Shown: piece by piece, positions 33,563-49,847 of the stretch | Numbering within the stretch: position 1 is the stretch's first letter | Layout: each line of letters begins with the position of its first letter | Assembly (NCBI GenBank): GCA_021299375.1 | Contig: JAJTGR010000036.1 | Coordinates: forward strand, 1-64,000 | Source: Gemmatimonadota bacterium | GTDB taxonomy: Bacteria > Gemmatimonadota > Gemmatimonadetes > Gemmatimonadales > Gemmatimonadaceae | Reading direction: 5' to 3' | Length of the DNA stretch: 64,000 bases | Notes under the pieces: generated by a model | Told to the model about the DNA's origin: nothing | The model's input: only the letters and a program-made list of their open reading frames with translations | Database searches by the model: none | Made by a program: the position numbers and the translations under genes

Positions 33563-36500
33563 TCAGCGATAGTTGTGCCCCTGGATGTGCTGCTCGCCGC
33601 CGCCGAGTTCGAGCGCCTTGAACTGTTTGGCCCGCACGTTCACCACCTGACCTTCCACCTGCAGCGTGCCGCGGATGAGCAGCAGCGGCGAGGTGGAGAT
33701 GAGCAGCGCGTGCTGGTCGAAGCGGTCGGGGGTGATGACGATGTTGATCATCCCGGTTTCATCCTCGAGGGTGAGGAACACGAACCCCTTGGCGGTGCCG
33801 GGGCGCTGCCGGCAGATCACCAGGCCGGCCACGGCGACCGGCTGACCATCCTTGCCCCGCTCGTGGGCTTCCTGCGCGGTGAACACGCCGTTGAGCGCGA
33901 GGTGCGGGCGTACATGTCGCATGGGGTGACCGGCGAGCGAGAGGCCGGTCATGCGGTAGTCGGCTTCGGTAAGCTCCACAGGCGTCGCGGCGGGGATCTG
34001 CGGCGCGGGGGCCGGTGGGGTGCGCGGGGCGAGTGGCAGTTCGGGGCCGCGCGTGGCGGCCATCACTTCCCAGAGCGCCACCCGCCGCCGGCGAGCGGGG
34101 GGCTCATGCGCGAACAGGGTGTCGAATGCCCCCGCTTCGGCGAGGCGGCGCCAGGCGGCCTTGTCGAGTGCCACACGCTGCACGGCATTCTCGACGCTCG
34201 TGAACGGGCCGTCGCGCAGCGCCGCCTCGAGCGCGCGGCGAGCCTTCGCGCCGAGGCCACGTACGAGACGCACACCAAGACGCACGGCGAGGGGTCGGGA
34301 GGCCGGCGGATCATCGGCGGCGGCTGGCGCGGCGGGCCGGCCCCACCGCACGGTGCCGTCGTTGGGTACCAGCGTCCGGCCGTCGGGCAGCTCGAGGCTG
34401 TGGTCCCACATACTCTCCGTGAGATCGATGGGGCGCACCGTCACGCCGTGCCGCCTGGCGTCCTCGATGAGCGTACTCGGCGAGTAGAAGCCCATGGGCT
34501 GCGCGTTGAGCATGGCGCACAAGTATTCGGGCGCGTAGTAGTGCCGCAGCCAAGCGGTGGCATATACGATCAGCGCGAAGCTCGCGGCGTGGCTCTCGGG
34601 AAAGCCGTAGTCGGCGAAGGCGTTGATCTGGTTGTAGATGCGGCGGCCGGTCTCTTCGGGGATGCCGTTGCGCGCCATGCCGGCGATGAGCTCCTCGCAG
34701 ATGGCGGCCATGCGTTCGCGCGAGCGCTTGTGCCCCATGGCGCGGCGCAGCACGTCGGCCTGACCGGGGGTGAAGCCGGCGGCCGCGATCGCCACCTGCA
34801 TCCCCTGCTCCTGAAAGAGCGGTACGCCCAGCGTACGCCGCAGCACGTGCTCCAGCGATGGATGCGGATAGGTGATGGGCTCGAGCCCAGCGCGGCGGCG
34901 CAGGTACGGATGCACCATCTCGCCCTGAATGGGACCCGGCCGGATGAGCGCGACTTCGACGACGAGATCGTAGAAGCAGCGCGGCCTGAGGCGTGGCAGG
35001 GTGTTCATCTGCGCGCGGCTTTCGATCTGGAAGAGCCCCACGGTGTCGGCGCGGCAGATCACGTCGTACACGGCCTGATCGCTCATGTCGAGTTGGCCAA
35101 GATCCACGGTCACGCCGCGCGTATGCCGGATATACAGCAGGCAGTCCTGCACCACGGTGAGCATGCCGAGGCCGAGCAGATCGATCTTCACGAGACCGAC
35201 GGGATCGAGATCATCCTTCTCCCACTGGATGACGGTGCGCCCCGGCATGGAGGCGGGCTCGATGGGCACCACCGAGCCGAGTGGCTCCTCGGTGAGGATG
35301 AAGCCACCCACGTGGATGGAGCGATGGCGCGGCAGCTGATGCAGCCCGTTCACCACGTGCGCGAGCTGCCGCACGCGCGGGTCGTCGGGATCGAGGCCGG
35401 CGCGCTGCAGGAGTTCGCGCCCGCTGCTGGAGTCGCGCGTGGCGGTGCTGCGATTGCGCTCTTCGACGAACTCGCGGGGCGTCTCCTTTGGCTCGTCGAG
35501 GGGGAGGCGGGAAGAGGGGTCGACCTTCTGGCGCACGATGGGGCGCGCGCGACCGCCGGGGCGCACGCCGTCGGCGCCCTTGGCGAGAGGGCCCAGCTGG
35601 GCACGCTCGTCGCTGGCGAGCTTCTGTTCGGCGCGCAGGTCCATGAGTTGCTGCCAGGTGGCATCGCGGAGGATGGCCGGCTCGATGGGCGGTGCGGGAA
35701 CCGCACGCACGGAGGGCACGGAGGATGGTGAGGGCGCGGAGGGGCGCGTGGCAGATGCGGCAACTTTGCGTGATGCCTCACGGACGACGCGGGCTTTTGT
35801 GGTCGCCTCGGTGCCGCCACGCATCTGTTGGCCCAGGCGTGCCGCGTCGCCATGCGCAGACGCCTCATTCACGCGTTGACCGTTCTCCGTACCCTCACTG
35901 TCCTCCGTGCCCTCCGTGTGCGCTGTGTCCGCCGTACTCTCGGCCGCATCGACCCGCAGCGCCGCCGCCGTACTCTTCGCACTGAACCGGTCACTCAGCG
36001 CGGCCAGGGCCTCCGCCTGCTTCGTGCTGAAGCCCAGTACGCGCGCCGCGTCCCGCACGGCGCTGCGGCCACGCCAGCTGATCTGCTCGCACACCATGGC
36101 GGCGTGCTCGCGGCCGTAGCGGTTGTACACGTACTGCAACACGCGCTCACGATCGCGGTGCGCGAAGTCGATGTCGATGTCGGGCGCCTCCTGTCGCTCC
36201 TCGCTCAGGAAGCGCTCGAAGAGCAGCTCCATGCGGATGGGATCGACCGCGGTGATGCCGAGGCAGAAGCAGACGGCAGAGTTGGCGGCCGAGCCGCGTC
36301 CCTGACACAGAATGCCTTCGCGTCGGGCGAACCGTACGATGTCCCATACGATGAGAAAGAACCCGGCCAGGTCGAGCTTGCGGATCATGCCGAGTTCGTG
36401 GGCGAGCTGGCGATCGTGCTTCGGGGTGCGTGTGTTGCCCCACCGCTCGTGCGCCCCCTGCTCGACGAGGCGGGCGAGATACTCGGGTGCGGTGACGCCG

Positions 36501-37354
36501 GGCGGCAACGGAAACGCCGGCATGGTGGGCTTGAGCTGCTGCAGCCGGAACGCGCACCGGTCGGCGATGCGGAGTGTGGCCCGCACGCCCTCCTCGGCCC
36601 CCCGCCAGCGCCGGTAGATGAGCCGCGGGGCCTTGAGCGCCCACTCCGCGTTGGGTCTGAGGCGCGTACCCATGGTGTCGAGCGTGCGTTCGTGGCGCAG
36701 CGTGGTGAGCACGTCATGCACGAGGCGCACTTCGGGGGTGGCATAGTGCACGTTGTTGGTGACGACCCACGGCACACCGAGTCGTGCCGCCAGCGGCTGC
36801 AGCTGCTTCACCAGCACGCGTTCTTCCGGCAGCCGATGGTCCCAGCACTCGATGGCCAGGTGCTCACCGAACACGTCGCGCAGTTCGGTGGCCGCGGTCC
36901 ATGCCTCGTCAGGCTTGCCCTCGGCCAACAGCTGGGGCACCCAGCCACGGGGGCAGCCGGTGAGCGCCGTGACCCCCTGCACATGGCGCGTGACGAGCGC
37001 CCAAGGCACGCTGGGGTGGCCGCGTACGCTGTCCAGGCGGGCCCGGGTGACCAAGGTGGAAATGTTGCGGTACCCCTCGCGCGTCTCGGCGAGCAGGACG
37101 AGGTGTGTGCGGCGCTCGCCCCCGCGATTGCCCAGCTCGGGCATGCGGACCGTAAGCTCGACGCCGAGAATCCCCCCCACGCCAACGGCTTCGCAGGCCG
37201 TGCCGAAGCGCACGACCCCACCCATCTCGTCGTGGTCGGTGAGCGCCAGGGCCGGGTAGCCCAGGGCTGCCGCCTGCTCGGCGAGCGCTTCGGGGAGCGA
37301 GGCGCCGTCGAGCAGGGAGAGGGCGGAGTGGCAGTGGAGTTCGGCGTACGACAT
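33563..37354 (-). CDS. dnaE2: Error-prone DNA polymerase DnaE2 (ImuC)
   Basis: A C-family polymerase of 1263 residues. It has an N-terminal PHP domain (AELHCHSALSLLDGAS), the palm aspartates in PDIDIDFAHRDRERV (about 391), the fingers, the HhH region with VRLVRGLGAKAR, and a C-terminal OB fold ending QHIQGHNYR. DnaE2 performs lesion bypass with ImuA and ImuB after DNA damage. Relatives are about 1050-1090 residues; this one carries an extra 190 or so (about 460-650) that is charged and low in complexity. Part of that insertion is an inverted-repeat element (35706-35922). A TTCGG-N6-TTCGG operator lies 8-23 bases before the ATG. The frame continues upstream to 37852, but that is antisense to the divergent PYP gene. 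Confidence 0.95.
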   Translation of the reverse strand: MSYAELHCHSALSLLDGASLPEALAEQAAALGYPALALTDHDEMGGVVRFGTACEAVGVGGILGVELTVRMPELGNRGGERRTHLVLLAETREGYRNISTLVTRARLDSVRGHPSVPWALVTRHVQGVTALTGCPRGWVPQLLAEGKPDEAWTAATELRDVFGEHLAIECWDHRLPEERVLVKQLQPLAARLGVPWVVTNNVHYATPEVRLVHDVLTTLRHERTLDTMGTRLRPNAEWALKAPRLIYRRWRGAEEGVRATLRIADRCAFRLQQLKPTMPAFPLPPGVTAPEYLARLVEQGAHERWGNTRTPKHDRQLAHELGMIRKLDLAGFFLIVWDIVRFARREGILCQGRGSAANSAVCFCLGITAVDPIRMELLFERFLSEERQEAPDIDIDFAHRDRERVLQYVYNRYGREHAAMVCEQISWRGRSAVRDAARVLGFSTKQAEALAALSDRFSAKSTAAALRVDAAESTADTAHTEGTEDSEGTENGQRVNEASAHGDAARLGQQMRGGTEATTKARVVREASRKVAASATRPSAPSPSSVPSVRAVPAPPIEPAILRDATWQQLMDLRAEQKLASDERAQLGPLAKGADGVRPGGRARPIVRQKVDPSSRLPLDEPKETPREFVEERNRSTATRDSSSGRELLQRAGLDPDDPRVRQLAHVVNGLHQLPRHRSIHVGGFILTEEPLGSVVPIEPASMPGRTVIQWEKDDLDPVGLVKIDLLGLGMLTVVQDCLLYIRHTRGVTVDLGQLDMSDQAVYDVICRADTVGLFQIESRAQMNTLPRLRPRCFYDLVVEVALIRPGPIQGEMVHPYLRRRAGLEPITYPHPSLEHVLRRTLGVPLFQEQGMQVAIAAAGFTPGQADVLRRAMGHKRSRERMAAICEELIAGMARNGIPEETGRRIYNQINAFADYGFPESHAASFALIVYATAWLRHYYAPEYLCAMLNAQPMGFYSPSTLIEDARRHGVTVRPIDLTESMWDHSLELPDGRTLVPNDGTVRWGRPAAPAAADDPPASRPLAVRLGVRLVRGLGAKARRALEAALRDGPFTSVENAVQRVALDKAAWRRLAEAGAFDTLFAHEPPARRRRVALWEVMAATRGPELPLAPRTPPAPAPQIPAATPVELTEADYRMTGLSLAGHPMRHVRPHLALNGVFTAQEAHERGKDGQPVAVAGLVICRQRPGTAKGFVFLTLEDETGMINIVITPDRFDQHALLISTSPLLLIRGTLQVEGQVVNVRAKQFKALELGGGEQHIQGHNYR
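35706..35922. repeat. Inverted-repeat element inside dnaE2 coding sequence
   Basis: The arm at 35706-35741 and the reverse complement of 35885-35922 share GGAGGGCACGGAGGA, then after two mismatches GTGAGGG, and after two more CGGAG (27 of about 32 aligned core bases). The arms are 143 bp apart. The whole 217-bp unit is translated within the extra region of DnaE2 (about residues 478-550). Short repeats rich in CTCCGTG are dispersed in some environmental bacterial genomes, so this may be a miniature mobile element. No clear target-site duplication is seen. Confidence 0.8.
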
Positions 37355-37361
37355 ACGACAG

Positions 37362-37377
37362 CCGAATATATACCGAA
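37362..37377 (-). promoter_or_regulatory. Putative SOS-type operator of dnaE2
   Basis: On the minus strand the site reads TTCGGTATATATTCGG, a direct repeat TTCGG-N6-TTCGG. It lies 8-23 bases upstream of the dnaE2 ATG, so the repressor would cover the start region of the transcript. The same repeat with identical spacing precedes imuA and the radical SAM gene. The 11-bp period is like the GTTC-N7-GTTC LexA box of Alphaproteobacteria. No lexA gene is in the window. Confidence 0.75.
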
Positions 37378-37474
37378 GAAAAGAGCGCTGGGCATCCCCC
37401 ACCCCCCATCCACCGGATCCCGAGCCTCGGGTTATCCTTGCAGTCCCCCACCGGATACCCACTCGCGCGTTTCG

Positions 37475-37903
37475 ATGCTCAACCCGTACACGCAACAGAT
37501 CGACGAGGCCCTGCAGGCCGCCGATCGCATGACCGCCGACGAACTGGATCGCTTGCCGTATGGCATGATCCAGCTCGATGCCACCGGGCGGATTCTCAAC
37601 TACAACGCGCTGGAGTCGAAGCTCGCGTCGCTGCGCAAGGAGGACGCGATCGGCAAGCAGTTCTTCACCGAGATCGCGCCGTGCACGCGGGTGCAGGAGT
37701 TCTACGGGCGCTTCAAGGAAGGGGTGATCCGGGAGTCGCTCGACACCAGCTTCCATTTCCATTTTGCGTTCAAGCAGCATCCCCGGGACGTCACGGTGCG
37801 GCTGCTCTACTCCAGGCGCACGCGCACGGTGTGGGTGCTGATCTCCGACCACGAGGGGAAGCCCCTGGCGGGGCAGGACACCGGGGACGCCCCGACGGGC
37901 TGA
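37475..37903 (+). CDS. pyp: Photoactive yellow protein homologue (PAS fold)
   Basis: A 142-residue PAS protein that aligns with Halorhodospira PYP without gaps through the core, offset by one residue. The chromophore cysteine is Cys70 in IAPCTRVQEFYG. The phenolate-binding Tyr43 and Glu47 are present in NYNALES. The block FYGRFKEGV is almost identical to the classical protein. Thr50 and Arg52 of the classical protein are replaced by Ala and Leu, which should shift colour or kinetics. The C-terminus extends about 15 residues (GKPLAGQDTGDAPTG). PYP binds p-coumarate and senses blue light; no tyrosine ammonia-lyase is in this window. The gene is divergent from dnaE2 across 120 bp and ends six bases from the convergent exchanger fusion. 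Confidence 0.87.
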   Translation: MLNPYTQQIDEALQAADRMTADELDRLPYGMIQLDATGRILNYNALESKLASLRKEDAIGKQFFTEIAPCTRVQEFYGRFKEGVIRESLDTSFHFHFAFKQHPRDVTVRLLYSRRTRTVWVLISDHEGKPLAGQDTGDAPTG

Positions 37904-37909
37904 CCGGCG

Positions 37910-40171
37910 TCAGCGCCGCACGATCGCCAGCGAGTCGGCGCTGCCGTCGTTCGGCGCCGGCACGACGCCGAGCAGCCGCGCCAGCAGCGGGTACACATGC
38001 ACGTTGGCGACGGGCCGCAGCACGCGCCCCTCGTCGATGTCGGGGCCGGCGGCGATGAACAGCGCGCCCATGCTCGGGAGTGCGTTGTCGTAGCCATGGG
38101 TGCCACCGCGTGGCGCGGGCAACCGTTTCGCGCGCTCCCGGCTGGTGATGGTCCATCCTTCACCGGCGAGCAGCACCAGCGGCGTGATGCGCACGTGGTC
38201 CCGATAGTGAAAACGCGCGGGCACACTGTCGCGATGAAACACCTGCAACTGCGGATGGGCATGGCGCAGGGCGTCGTACACGGCGGCGAGCTTGCCCGGC
38301 TTGGGCGTGACGGCGCTCACTGGCATCCAGTCCACCACCTCCACGTCGGTGAGATCGATGTAGTCGTCGAGATAGATGCGACGCTCGGCGCTGACGTCGG
38401 TCATGCCGTGGTCGGAGACGATCACCAGATTGACACGGTCGCCGAGCCCGCGCGCCGCGAGCCCATCGACGAGTGCCCCCACCAGCGAGTCGACATGGGT
38501 GATCGCGGTGTCGACCTGCGCTGACGGCGGCCCGTATGCATGGCCGGCATCGTCGGTGGTGCTGAAGTAGAGTGCCACGAACCGCGGCGCCTGTGCCGGC
38601 GGCATCGCGAGCCAGTCGAGCACCTGTGTGACGCGCGCCGCGTTCGGCATCCGGCCGTCGTAGGGCAGGTAGTAGGTGGGCCGGCGGCCCCCGATCGCGT
38701 AGTCGCCGCCAGGCCAGAACAGCGACGCGGCGCGCACACCCTGCTTCTCGGCGGTCACCCAGATGGGCTCGCCGCCCCACCAGCGCGGATCGCGCGCCAC
38801 CAGCGTGTCGCCGATGGTGAAGGTCGCGGCGATGTTCGGGTCGCGCATCGTATTGGCCACGATGCCGTGGTGCTCGGGGTACAGCCCGGTGACAAGCGTG
38901 TGGTGATTGGGAAAGGTCTTGCTCGGAAAACTGGGCACCAGCCGCTCGGCACGCGCCCCGCGCTCGGCGAGGGCGCGCAGGCGCACCGCTCCGGGACGGT
39001 CGAGATAGTCGGCGCGGAAGCCGTCGAGAGACACGAGCAGCGTCGCATTGGCCAGGGCTTGCGCGGACGCCGGCGCGATACCCGACACACCACCGGCGGC
39101 GTCACGTGCAAGGCGGGGCGTGGCTGCCCCGGCCGTCGACCGCCAGAACACCAGCCCGATCCCCAGCACGTACCCCATCACAAGCAGCAGGCTGCCCGGT
39201 TCGACGGCCCGCTCCACACGCTTGGAGCGCAGGGCGAGGGTGCCGATCGCCACGGCCATGAGGATCACGGCCACCATGGCGGTGAGCACGTGTGCGGGGT
39301 CGGCCACGCTGAGCACCGGCGCTGCCGGATGCGCGAGATCGAGGCCGGCGAAGATGATCATGTTGAGCGCATTGCTGCCGAATAGATTGCCGACGGCGAG
39401 ATCGTAGGCACGCAGCCGAACGGCGGCCAGCGAGGTGACCAGTTCGGGCAGGGACGTGGAGAGCCCCACGAGCCATGTCCCGACGAAGGTGGAGCCGACA
39501 CCGGTGAGGGTGGCAATGCCTTCGGCGGCGTGCGCGAATTGCGGCGCCGCCATCACGATCACGGCGGCGGCGGCGAGAAAGGTGAGCCCGGCGCGCTGCA
39601 GCGTGGGCGTGTTGCCGTCGGCATGCGTGGCACTCGGGACGGCCGCCCCACCGGGCGCGGAGGACATCTCGATCGTCACGCCGGCCTCCTGCGCCACCCG
39701 GCTGTGCCGAAAGGCCGCCCGCGACGCGACGGCGTACACCACCAGGATCACGAGCGACCCGGCACCCATCCCCGCCACCGACGCCGTCGAGCGGATGAGG
39801 ATGGTACCGGCGGCCATCATCGTGAGGATGATGGCGAGGCACGCATACAGCACGTGGTCGAGCGTGGTGCGGCGGAACACGTCGGCCCCGCCCGGCACGA
39901 GACTGACCAGGCTGAGGATGAGCATGTTGGCCATGCTGCTGCCGAAGAGGTCGCCCACGGCGAGGTCGATGGCGCCCAGGCGAACGGCGGCGAGGTCGGT
40001 GACGATCTCCGGCAGCGACGTGGCGAGCGCGAGAAACACCGAGCCTACCCAGACACCGCCCAGGCGCGTGCGGGCGGCAATCACGTCACCACTGCGCGCC
40101 AGGACGGTCCCGGCCACGATGACCACCACGGCCGCGACGACGAAGCGCAGGCCGAGGGTGGCGAGGGTCAC
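37910..40171 (-). CDS. Fusion: CaCA-type cation exchanger + NPP-like phosphodiesterase
   Basis: One frame of 753 residues joins two families. Residues about 1-345 are a membrane exchanger of the calcium/cation antiporter type, with two alpha-repeats: LATSLPEIVTDLAAVRLG...GDLFGSSMAN, and LSTSLPELVTSLAAVRLR...GNLFGSNALN. Residues about 370-753 are a nucleotide pyrophosphatase/phosphodiesterase: metal Asp in SLDGFRADYLD, nucleophile Thr in FPSKTFPNHHTLVTG, then TTDDAGHAYGP, IVSDHGMTDV and GTHGYDN. Its start is a GTG overlapping the UspA stop (GTGA). The phosphodiesterase should lie outside the membrane, tethered to the exchanger. It is the third gene of a run with a calcium ATPase and UspA. Confidence 0.88.
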   Translation of the reverse strand: MTLATLGLRFVVAAVVVIVAGTVLARSGDVIAARTRLGGVWVGSVFLALATSLPEIVTDLAAVRLGAIDLAVGDLFGSSMANMLILSLVSLVPGGADVFRRTTLDHVLYACLAIILTMMAAGTILIRSTASVAGMGAGSLVILVVYAVASRAAFRHSRVAQEAGVTIEMSSAPGGAAVPSATHADGNTPTLQRAGLTFLAAAAVIVMAAPQFAHAAEGIATLTGVGSTFVGTWLVGLSTSLPELVTSLAAVRLRAYDLAVGNLFGSNALNMIIFAGLDLAHPAAPVLSVADPAHVLTAMVAVILMAVAIGTLALRSKRVERAVEPGSLLLVMGYVLGIGLVFWRSTAGAATPRLARDAAGGVSGIAPASAQALANATLLVSLDGFRADYLDRPGAVRLRALAERGARAERLVPSFPSKTFPNHHTLVTGLYPEHHGIVANTMRDPNIAATFTIGDTLVARDPRWWGGEPIWVTAEKQGVRAASLFWPGGDYAIGGRRPTYYLPYDGRMPNAARVTQVLDWLAMPPAQAPRFVALYFSTTDDAGHAYGPPSAQVDTAITHVDSLVGALVDGLAARGLGDRVNLVIVSDHGMTDVSAERRIYLDDYIDLTDVEVVDWMPVSAVTPKPGKLAAVYDALRHAHPQLQVFHRDSVPARFHYRDHVRITPLVLLAGEGWTITSRERAKRLPAPRGGTHGYDNALPSMGALFIAAGPDIDEGRVLRPVANVHVYPLLARLLGVVPAPNDGSADSLAIVRR

Positions 40172-47945: not shown

Positions 47946-49847
47946 TCAGTCGTACCACCCCTGCACGTACCAGCGCGCATCGGCCTCGTGGTACAGCAGC
48001 ACGTCCCCTTCGCCGTCGGCGAGGGCGCGCCAATAGTCGCGCGCGTAGCCGTCGCCGCGCCACCAGTCGCCGCTGAGGCGCTCGGGCCCATGCACCGACA
48101 CGAATGACAGCCGGCGTCCACGCCACCACACCGCGCCGGGTACCCCGTGCGGGGCTTCCACCTCCACCGCCTCGGGGGGCGTGAGCAAGCGCAGCACGGC
48201 CGGCGTGACGCCAGGGAGCATCGCCGACGCGCCCGGTGGTGCGGGCAACGCCGCCGCCGCGAGCGCCACGGCATCGGCGTTCACCCAGGTACCGGTCTCC
48301 TCCACGCGATGGGTATCGCGTGCTTCGGGGTGTACGATCACATCGCCACGGTTGTCCGGATCAAGCACCGCCCGCAGCCGCGCGAACACGGCTTCGGCGT
48401 TCATGGCGGCATCCCGCCACGACGGCACGAGCAGGTCGCCTTGATCGGCAGCCAGCGGCGCCGTGGCCGGCACGCTGACGGTGACCCCGATGACCGGTGC
48501 GGGGATGCGCCAGCTTTCGAGCAGCGCCCGACACTGATCGAAGAGCGGCTCGAGCCGGGCCAGCGGCCGCGCGGGGCGGACTTCGCGGGTGATGCTGCGC
48601 TGCGGAATGCCGAGCAGGGAGGACGATGGGGACCGCACCCGCTCGGCGGATGGCACCGGTGTCGGGGCGGGGCGGGTCTCCGCCCGCCGGTCACCCGCAC
48701 TCCCATCATCCGATGTCTCCGGCACTTCCGTATGCCCAACCAGCTCCGACCCGATGTCCTCGATGGGGTACTGGCGCCCGGCGTCGAGCACGAGCGTGAT
48801 GGCCACCGCCGCTGCTGCCCGCCCGTCGTGCACACACGCGTGCAGCAACCGCTGCAACTGGGCACGCAGCACGAACAGCACCGGCTCGGCACTCTCCACC
48901 GCCGCTGGCAGCTCCACGCTGGCGCTGCGGGCGGCCTCCACGCGCACGAGCCCCGGCCGCCGCGGGTCGTCGCCGCGCGCCAGCCGCCACGCCGTGAGCC
49001 CCTCGGCGCCCCAGCGGTGCTCGACGTCGCCGGGGTCGAGCACGGCCAAGGCGCCCACGGTGCGCAGCCCCAGCATCTGCAGCGCCTCGCGGACGTCGTC
49101 TGGCATGGGCACGAGCCCCAGCGGTGCTGGCGCGAGATACGGAGCGCAGTGCCCGCGGGGCACCAGGGTGATGGTCGAGGGCAAGGCGGCGGGCGTGGAG
49201 TGGGCGGCGTGGACGGCGGATCCTGGCGCGGTACGGCGCGGCGGCGGCGCCCACGTCGCCGCTCGGGCCGCCACGCAGCTGTCGGCGATGGCTACGCGGG
49301 CGTCGGGATGCCACCGCTGCGCGATGGTGAGCAGGGTGCGCGCCAACTGCTCCTCGCCGCCGAGGGCGTCGAACCCGGTCGCCCCCACCCACCACATGCC
49401 CGGGGTGCCGGCCACCGGTGTGACCTGCGGACTGGCAGCGAGCAACGCCGTGGTGGCCGCGAGCACGGCGTCGGTGATGGCATGCTCGTCCCACGGGCGC
49501 ACTTCGAGGTCGGCACAGCGCGCCTGTGCCTCAGGGATGGTCATCCCGGCGCGCACACCCGCGCGCCCCGCGGCGAGCGACACCACACGCAAGCGTGTGT
49601 CGACCGCGAGGGCGCGCGGGGCGTCATCCCAATGGGGTGGGGGCGCGGTCGCGCCGGCTGCGGCGCCCGAACCCCGACTCGGCGGCGCGCCGTCGCCCGC
49701 GGTACGTCGTCCAGTCGCGGGTGCGCCGGTCGAGATCCCGCTCGTGCCGGTCGCGTCCGGGGCCGGTGAGCCGGTCGCCGGGGGCCTCGTCGAGTCCAGC
49801 AGCAAGTCGAGCTGGATGTCCGGGAACGTCAGTTCCGTACAGGTCAT
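47946..49847 (-). CDS. imuB: ImuB-like Y-family polymerase-related protein
   Basis: A protein of about 633 residues. It opens MTCTELTFPDIQLDLLL, the usual first strand of Y-family proteins; a Pro/Ala/Gly-rich linker comes next, then AVDTRLRVVSLAAGRAGVRAGMTIPEAQARC, typical of ImuB. The family lacks the polymerase catalytic acids and acts as a clamp-bound adaptor for ImuA and DnaE2. The C-terminal half is an extended little-finger-like region ending WYVQGWYD. The chosen ATG lies inside the end of imuA; ATGA formed with a stop in another frame is also present. No canonical QLxLF clamp motif is obvious. It forms the SOS mutasome with imuA and dnaE2. Confidence 0.88.
   Translation of the reverse strand: MTCTELTFPDIQLDLLLDSTRPPATGSPAPDATGTSGISTGAPATGRRTAGDGAPPSRGSGAAAGATAPPPHWDDAPRALAVDTRLRVVSLAAGRAGVRAGMTIPEAQARCADLEVRPWDEHAITDAVLAATTALLAASPQVTPVAGTPGMWWVGATGFDALGGEEQLARTLLTIAQRWHPDARVAIADSCVAARAATWAPPPRRTAPGSAVHAAHSTPAALPSTITLVPRGHCAPYLAPAPLGLVPMPDDVREALQMLGLRTVGALAVLDPGDVEHRWGAEGLTAWRLARGDDPRRPGLVRVEAARSASVELPAAVESAEPVLFVLRAQLQRLLHACVHDGRAAAAVAITLVLDAGRQYPIEDIGSELVGHTEVPETSDDGSAGDRRAETRPAPTPVPSAERVRSPSSSLLGIPQRSITREVRPARPLARLEPLFDQCRALLESWRIPAPVIGVTVSVPATAPLAADQGDLLVPSWRDAAMNAEAVFARLRAVLDPDNRGDVIVHPEARDTHRVEETGTWVNADAVALAAAALPAPPGASAMLPGVTPAVLRLLTPPEAVEVEAPHGVPGAVWWRGRRLSFVSVHGPERLSGDWWRGDGYARDYWRALADGEGDVLLYHEADARWYVQGWYD

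Follow-up and report, generated by a model that had tools for sequence, protein, structure and literature searches.

A gene for a protein related to photoactive yellow protein (PYP), a blue-light sensor, lies reversed beside or inside the genes for DNA-damage-induced mutagenesis of soil and lake Gemmatimonadaceae. The arrangement points to a connection, so far undescribed, of a light-sensor protein with mutagenesis. The parts are known singly and their combination, a PYP with the SOS mutasome, is undescribed in the literature that we searched: in a search that covered few subscription papers, no paper was found linking PYP with dnaE2, imuB or the SOS response, nor one reporting a PYP in Gemmatimonas. 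PYP is among the best studied photoreceptors. For its single-domain forms, little has been learnt about partner and output (PMC9664959). In Gemmatimonadaceae, gene position ties an entire PYP subgroup to one defined machine, the LexA-controlled ImuA-ImuB-DnaE2 mutasome, and cultured members of the family make it a testable question whether a light-sensor protein controls induced mutagenesis.

The window, that is, the whole stretch of 64,000 nucleotides that was analysed, carries the following features of this locus:

33563..37354, minus strand: dnaE2 (imuC), error-prone DNA polymerase (NF004225, 1237 bits against a cut-off of 939)
37355..37474: divergent intergenic region between dnaE2 and pyp, 120 bp
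37361..37377, minus strand: LexA-type (SOS) box TTCGGTATATATTCGGC, 17 bp, direct repeat TTCGG-N6-TTCGG, at the dnaE2 5′ end
37475..37903, plus strand: pyp, single-domain PYP-family protein of 142 aa with an ATG start (Tyr43, Glu47, Cys70; Ala51, Leu53, Gln101)
47946..49847 (start approximate), minus strand: imuB, Y-family-like mutasome subunit (PF00817 IMS, 24.6 bits against 23.2)
49624..50778, minus strand: imuA, RecA-like mutasome subunit (NF033429 ImuA_translesion, E 2.8e-14, 53 bits, missing the cut-off of 150; PF00154 RecA, 49 bits)
50786..50802, minus strand: LexA-type box TTCGGTCTTTCTTCGGT upstream of imuA
50860..51903, minus strand: radical SAM gene of the SOS cassette, Rv2578c/PA0069 family (NF038135, 208.6 bits, missing the cut-off of 430; PF04055)
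51915..51931, minus strand: LexA-type box TTCGGCGTTTGTTCGGT upstream of the radical SAM gene

The product of 37475-37903 belongs to the PYP family. Its best curated family in profile searches is TIGR02373 photo_yellow (E 8e-31, 106.7 bits, residues 7-123), with PAS PF00989 giving a weaker match (E 6.5e-8). All 33 PDB matches obtained with phmmer are PYP, Ppr or FAST chains, the best at E 1.5e-23, and the fold predicted by AlphaFold2 from a 30-sequence alignment (pLDDT 84.4, pTM 0.80) likewise has only PYP, Ppr and FAST structures as its Foldseek PDB matches 1 to 41. Together, these comparisons rule out a chance likeness to a generic PAS domain. The initial annotation had described a PAS protein with Cys70, Tyr43 and Glu47 placed as in Halorhodospira (Hh) PYP, offset by one, and the alignment confirms it, since the three residues fall on Cys69, Tyr42 and Glu46 of the Hh protein, to which the pyp product is about 40% identical. 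The segment FYGRFKEGV, taken to be nearly unchanged, is indeed one residue apart from FYGKFKEGV of Hh PYP, and Thr50 and Arg52, said not to be conserved, are replaced by Ala51 and Leu53. This loss is no argument against a PYP, because related PYPs in Myxococcota carry Ala/Ile at the same positions and a PYP of the same genus, encoded beside a real tyrosine ammonia-lyase (TAL) gene, has Ala50 and Val52; as the PDB also includes PYP structures with T50V, R52Q and M100Q, we rejected it as a sign of lost function.

The pyp product misses the curated TIGR02373 cut-off of 143 bits. So do a TAL-linked PYP of the same genus (106.1 bits) and a Roseicella PYP (127.5 bits), and according to Xing et al. 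(2022, PMC9664959) the model recovers no more than about 20% of PYPs. For these reasons the cut-off was not treated as defining and was dropped as a membership test. The family has been defined by a kept Cys69, bound as a thioester to p-coumarate (Xing et al. 2022, PMC9664959), and because its equivalent is kept the window protein is a member by that definition.

How widespread are such proteins? TIGR02373 matches at E <= 1e-5 occur in 46 of the 179 Gemmatimonadaceae genomes, at least one of which (G127) owes its match to a generic PAS kinase, and the Gemmatimonadota PYP set is now far larger than the fewer than five genomes reported before (Xing et al. 2022, PMC9664959). The subgroup of the window protein, group 1, is present in 37 genomes, with 65-100% identity to the window protein. 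In the tree, with the outgroups that were included, it forms a monophyletic group (support 99/96) whose branching follows the genera for the most part. Its pocket keeps Cys70 and Glu47 in 37/37, while position 43 is Tyr in 34 and Phe in 3; in Hh numbering, Ala50 is found in 37/37, Leu52 in 36/37 and Gln100 in 34/37. Changes in the Cys and Glu codons are synonymous, and the dN/dS of the genes, 0.05-0.17, corresponds to purifying selection. Among the carriers with a name are Gemmatimonas sp. and a MAG of G. phototrophica, and the cultured G. groenlandica TET16 (G044) and G. phototrophica AP64 (G045) both have the pyp-dnaE2 pair.

At 36 of the 37 group 1 loci dnaE2 lies within 8 kb of pyp, and at 32 it is directly divergent from it; the remaining PYP, in G014, is away from dnaE2. 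None of 22 other PYP-like loci of Gemmatimonadaceae has dnaE2, imuA, imuB or lexA nearby. The same was true of dnaE2 at 17 PYP loci of two other Gemmatimonadota families and at 19 distant ones (Myxococcota, Acidobacteriota, Longimicrobium, Roseicella and others), that is, a spread of the link beyond the family was not seen in 36 PYP loci from elsewhere. The conservation of gene order in at least eight genera argues that the link of PYP to a damage-inducible polymerase, first noticed in the window, is old and not accidental.

The two genes diverge across a gap (37355-37474) of exactly 120 bp, as had been claimed, and the putative damage operator assigned to it finds its counterpart in the LexA-type box TTCGGTATATATTCGGC at 37361-37377, a pattern that genome-wide stands only before SOS genes. 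Indeed, the strict pattern TTCGGYNTNTNTTCGG has five matches in the 4.5 Mb window genome, at dnaE2, imuA, the radical SAM gene and, twice, lexA, and a reversed control pattern has none in the same genome. The strict matches at imuA and the radical SAM gene span 50787-50802 and 51916-51931 of the window, respectively. Because all five matches are at SOS genes against none for the reversed pattern, and because pyp is under purifying selection, we consider the observation to go beyond chance. Across four Gemmatimonas genomes, 16 of the 17 strict matches precede lexA, imuA, the radical SAM gene or dnaE2, the sole match without a recognised SOS gene after it being L253 (G043:C1:3920324-3920339). 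Two LexA-type boxes 37 bp apart precede lexA in the window genome, G043 and G045 (L133, L245/L249, L247/L251). The LexA of the window genome is recognised by TIGR00498 (206 bits against a cut-off of 111). We take the TTCGG-N6-TTCGG box to be that of LexA, and infer that LexA would bind it and repress dnaE2 from it; the pattern gives Gemmatimonas a strict LexA-type motif. A sigma-70 promoter scan of the dnaE2-pyp gap found none.

Two further observations concern the reading frames around the gap. Very long overlapping frames run opposite dnaE2 and pyp (33563-37852 on the minus strand and 35828-37903 on the plus strand), and on the dnaE2 strand the frame continues without a stop across most of pyp, antisense to it. 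This is probably a G+C effect. At 37910-40171 (minus strand), a single frame joins a calcium/sodium antiporter to a phosphodiesterase/phosphatase-like domain, either as a fusion or through an error; in relatives such as L051 and L067 the two are separate frames.

The genes imuA, imuB and dnaE2 are all present in the window genome. ImuA and ImuB score weakly in the profile searches, but their genes show synteny with relatives, where imuB is adjacent to dnaE2; DNA polymerase IV models also match imuB (E 5e-7), and the imuA frame as listed overlaps the imuB frame with its 3′ part. A radical SAM gene of the Rv2578c/PA0069 type with its own LexA-type box belongs to the SOS cassette of many Gemmatimonadaceae. 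In the window, imuAB lies about 10 kb from dnaE2, and the dnaE2 box sits between dnaE2 and pyp.

Comparison across the family revealed that the position of the box goes with that of imuB. In 23 loci without PYP, imuB and dnaE2 are contiguous, and the boxes sit before imuA, imuB or the radical SAM gene and never at dnaE2 (0/23). At nine loci from six genera, including G006/G007 and G093/G094, pyp lies reversed between imuB and dnaE2. Where imuB is not adjacent, dnaE2 has its own box in 32 of 42 loci (ten have none) against 0/23 of the contiguous ones (Fisher p 5e-10), and the sandwiched loci, with a box at dnaE2 in one of nine, resemble the contiguous and not the non-adjacent ones (p 0.0005), these p values overstating independence because the loci are related by descent. 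The sandwiched exception is L073, with pyp in between and a box at dnaE2 as well. In five of the six sandwiched genera the pyp-dnaE2 gap holds no LexA-type box. At L061 and L085, a box that begins 3 bp beyond the stop codon of pyp faces dnaE2 through pyp, and dnaE2 itself has none; a histidine kinase gene adjoins pyp only at these two loci, and no signalling gene is a consistent neighbour. An intrinsic terminator on the dnaE2 strand is absent from eight of the nine sandwiched loci. From the box positions and the missing terminators, SOS transcription probably crosses pyp antisense in the sandwiched genomes.

Genera that bear PYP also have contiguous members without it (G002/G005 in g2, G092 in g18, G043 in g1), and both g2 and g18 contain some genomes in which pyp occupies the imuB-dnaE2 gap and others in which it does not. 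G043, which we take to be probably G. aurantiaca T-27, has no group 1 PYP, and its imuB is next to dnaE2. In the window, with imuAB away, the antisense layout is no longer present. These arrangements bear on the proposal that light and damage responses share a control region, which needs revision: the LexA-type box in the gap is next to dnaE2, at a distance of about 97 bp upstream from pyp, and in other genera the SOS promoters would lie on the far side of pyp and transcribe it antisense. The box as an operator of pyp itself is unsupported, given its place next to dnaE2 and the lack of a box close to pyp at most of the sandwiched loci.

Is the window PYP able to sense light? The initial annotation had pointed to a tyrosine ammonia-lyase and a p-coumarate ligase as enzymes to look for in the genome, and the search recovered neither. 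The sole aromatic ammonia-lyase (PF00221) of the window genome (96% complete) is HutH, with 617.8 bits against a cut-off of 539 and a Ser-His selectivity motif, and none of its nine AMP-binding proteins scores above the cut-off as a coumarate ligase, one being benzoate-CoA-ligase-like. The pCA:CoA ligase model TIGR02372 had no match in the window genome and none in PYP-bearing control genomes either; since no positive control matched, it is uninformative and was dropped as a ligase test. A TAL/pCL cassette was also considered and rejected, as none surrounds the window gene and TAL is nowhere else in the genome. At most one aromatic lyase is present in 34 of the 37 group 1 genomes (the lyase motif was read in the window genome and in a sample of the others), and the few with TAL include two in which it lies beside a different PYP. 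As far as the sequence tells, the genome has no route to p-coumarate, which is one half of what the initial annotation had named as refuting its proposal, although exogenous p-coumarate is possible. The supply of chromophore is therefore doubtful: because neither TAL nor a coumarate ligase was recognised, a light-sensing PYP would depend on imported p-coumarate or on a pathway that the search did not recognise. Light sensing by the window PYP is plausible at most, and the conserved pocket suggests the use of a chromophore or ligand of some kind. If the protein has a photocycle, Gln in place of Met100 would be expected to make its recovery slow. Of six group 1 genomes tested for photolyase, five have it, and it is absent from G043, which lacks a group 1 PYP; G112, the exception, has a group 1 PYP and no photolyase, which makes this co-occurrence imperfect as proof of the light model.

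Other PYP-like proteins of the family fall outside group 1. Group 2 comprises 15 loci in Gemmatimonas (L050, L053, L054, L055, L057, L059, L068, L070, L072, L074, L076, L091, L093, L094 and L048; an example is L050:7893-8318, minus strand). In all 15 Cys69 is replaced by Ser or Gly, in 14 a Cys is found at 98, and sometimes there is one at 42; a sodium:solute symporter gene is divergent from most of them. Because the Cys was lost in this sister group, non-photoactive PYP-like proteins do exist in Gemmatimonas, and group 2 proteins may sense the redox state or some different signal, in a parallel to methylobacterial Ppr. The remaining proteins include those of L052/L194 (G045, G. phototrophica) and L080 (G088), which are classical-looking, with a TAL gene (His-Leu motif) about 3-4 kb off and an HDOD protein gene also near. 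In all, G. phototrophica has three PYP-like proteins that differ from one another. Its TAL gene has a 79% identical counterpart at L129/L195 (G073:C83:9502-10944), where the 20 kb examined hold no PYP gene.

Family membership, residue conservation, purifying selection, linkage, and the LexA-type box with its relocation, all read from sequence, can be joined in one scheme. The reading that we favour, tentatively and with a little less than even confidence, is that the PYP sensor is an accessory gene of the SOS mutasome cassette and that blue light, through a chromophore on Cys70, restrains or tunes error-prone synthesis. A gene for a PYP-family sensor would have joined the cassette of the Rv2578c-type radical SAM gene, imuA, imuB and dnaE2, and the ancestral pyp would have come to rest reversed between imuB and dnaE2. 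In this sandwiched state LexA would control dnaE2 from promoters beyond pyp, and a transcript induced by damage would therefore run through pyp in antisense. As in a noncontiguous operon, more pyp product would mean less mutasome and the reverse. That LexA binds, that the antisense transcript exists and that the two exclude each other is inferred. In most Gemmatimonas, including the window, imuAB would then have moved off and dnaE2 would have gained its own LexA box, while the divergent pair stayed. Light sensing and a protein-level output are more speculative: a p-coumaroyl-type chromophore on Cys70, either acquired from the surroundings or synthesised by a pathway not recognised here, would sense blue light, and PYP would restrain or tune error-prone synthesis by binding a partner, mutagenic bypass being used less when light-driven repair is possible. 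The complete version, with PYP as a blue-light receptor built into the SOS mutasome that sets how much error-prone synthesis is allowed, and with pyp and the operon excluding each other by antisense transcription, we regard as doubtful.

The missing TAL and coumarate ligase, together with a sister group of the same genus that lost the Cys and gained another at 98, would also fit a mutasome accessory that is no photoreceptor, in which a PYP-type PAS domain without p-coumarate serves as a protein-binding scaffold or as a ligand or redox sensor via Cys70. We hold this to be possible, well short of probable, since all 37 linked PYPs keep the residues that define chromophore binding (PMC9664959), with Cys70 and Glu47 invariant and Tyr43 as Tyr or Phe, and exogenous p-coumarate could be used. 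Long-lasting linkage could also arise by inheritance without function. Had a single ancestral insertion placed pyp next to dnaE2, to be inherited with no functional tie to mutagenesis, a monophyletic group 1 that mostly follows the genera would be expected, as is seen. Yet the surroundings vary, with imuB, a P-type ATPase, TonB and further genes present at some loci and not at others, and pyp and dnaE2 are nevertheless divergent in 32/37, the pair is still within 8 kb where the gap has been invaded, and L061 and L085 rebuilt dnaE2 regulation around pyp without losing it, which makes such neutral hitchhiking unlikely. Least probable of all, to the point of being improbable, seems a classical light sensor with an unrelated output, for instance photosynthesis or motility, whose only tie to dnaE2 would be a common divergent promoter region under SOS control. 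The box between the two genes in the window and the presence of pyp in the phototrophic Gemmatimonas G044 and G045 would agree with it, but the pyp-dnaE2 gap is free of a LexA-type box in most sandwiched genera, genera other than Gemmatimonas also carry the pair, and no signalling gene lies beside pyp consistently, a histidine kinase gene adjoining it at L061 and L085 alone.

Among known systems, Hh PYP shares with the window PYP the single-domain PAS architecture, the Tyr/Glu/Cys triad, the Phe-rich pocket, Trp119 and the fold, and differs from it (Hh numbering) by Thr50 in place of Ala50, Arg52 in place of Leu52, Met100 in place of Gln100 and Tyr98 in place of Phe98. Published PYP neighbourhoods contain kinases, GGDEF proteins, chemoreceptors, TAL and pCL, whereas the window PYP sits in an SOS locus with no TAL or pCL nearby. 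The TAL-linked PYPs of G. phototrophica (L052) and G088 (L080) belong to the same protein family, come from the same bacterial family and keep Cys69; unlike the window PYP, they have TAL at about 3-4 kb, keep Met100 and have no mutasome link. The ImuA-ImuB-DnaE2 (ImuC) cassette described elsewhere has in common with the one studied here the LexA-controlled imuA-imuB-dnaE2 genes, often with an Rv2578c-type radical SAM gene, but here pyp either sits in reverse in the imuB-dnaE2 interval or, where imuAB has moved, is still paired divergently with dnaE2. The closest parallel to the sandwiched arrangement is the noncontiguous operon, or excludon, menE-menC-MW1733-ytkD of S. aureus, in which an opposite-strand gene likewise lies inside an operon and sense and antisense transcripts overlap (PMC7154746), whereas the Gemmatimonadaceae case is deduced from LexA box positions and missing terminators. 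In this respect, the sandwiched loci represent a candidate noncontiguous SOS operon.
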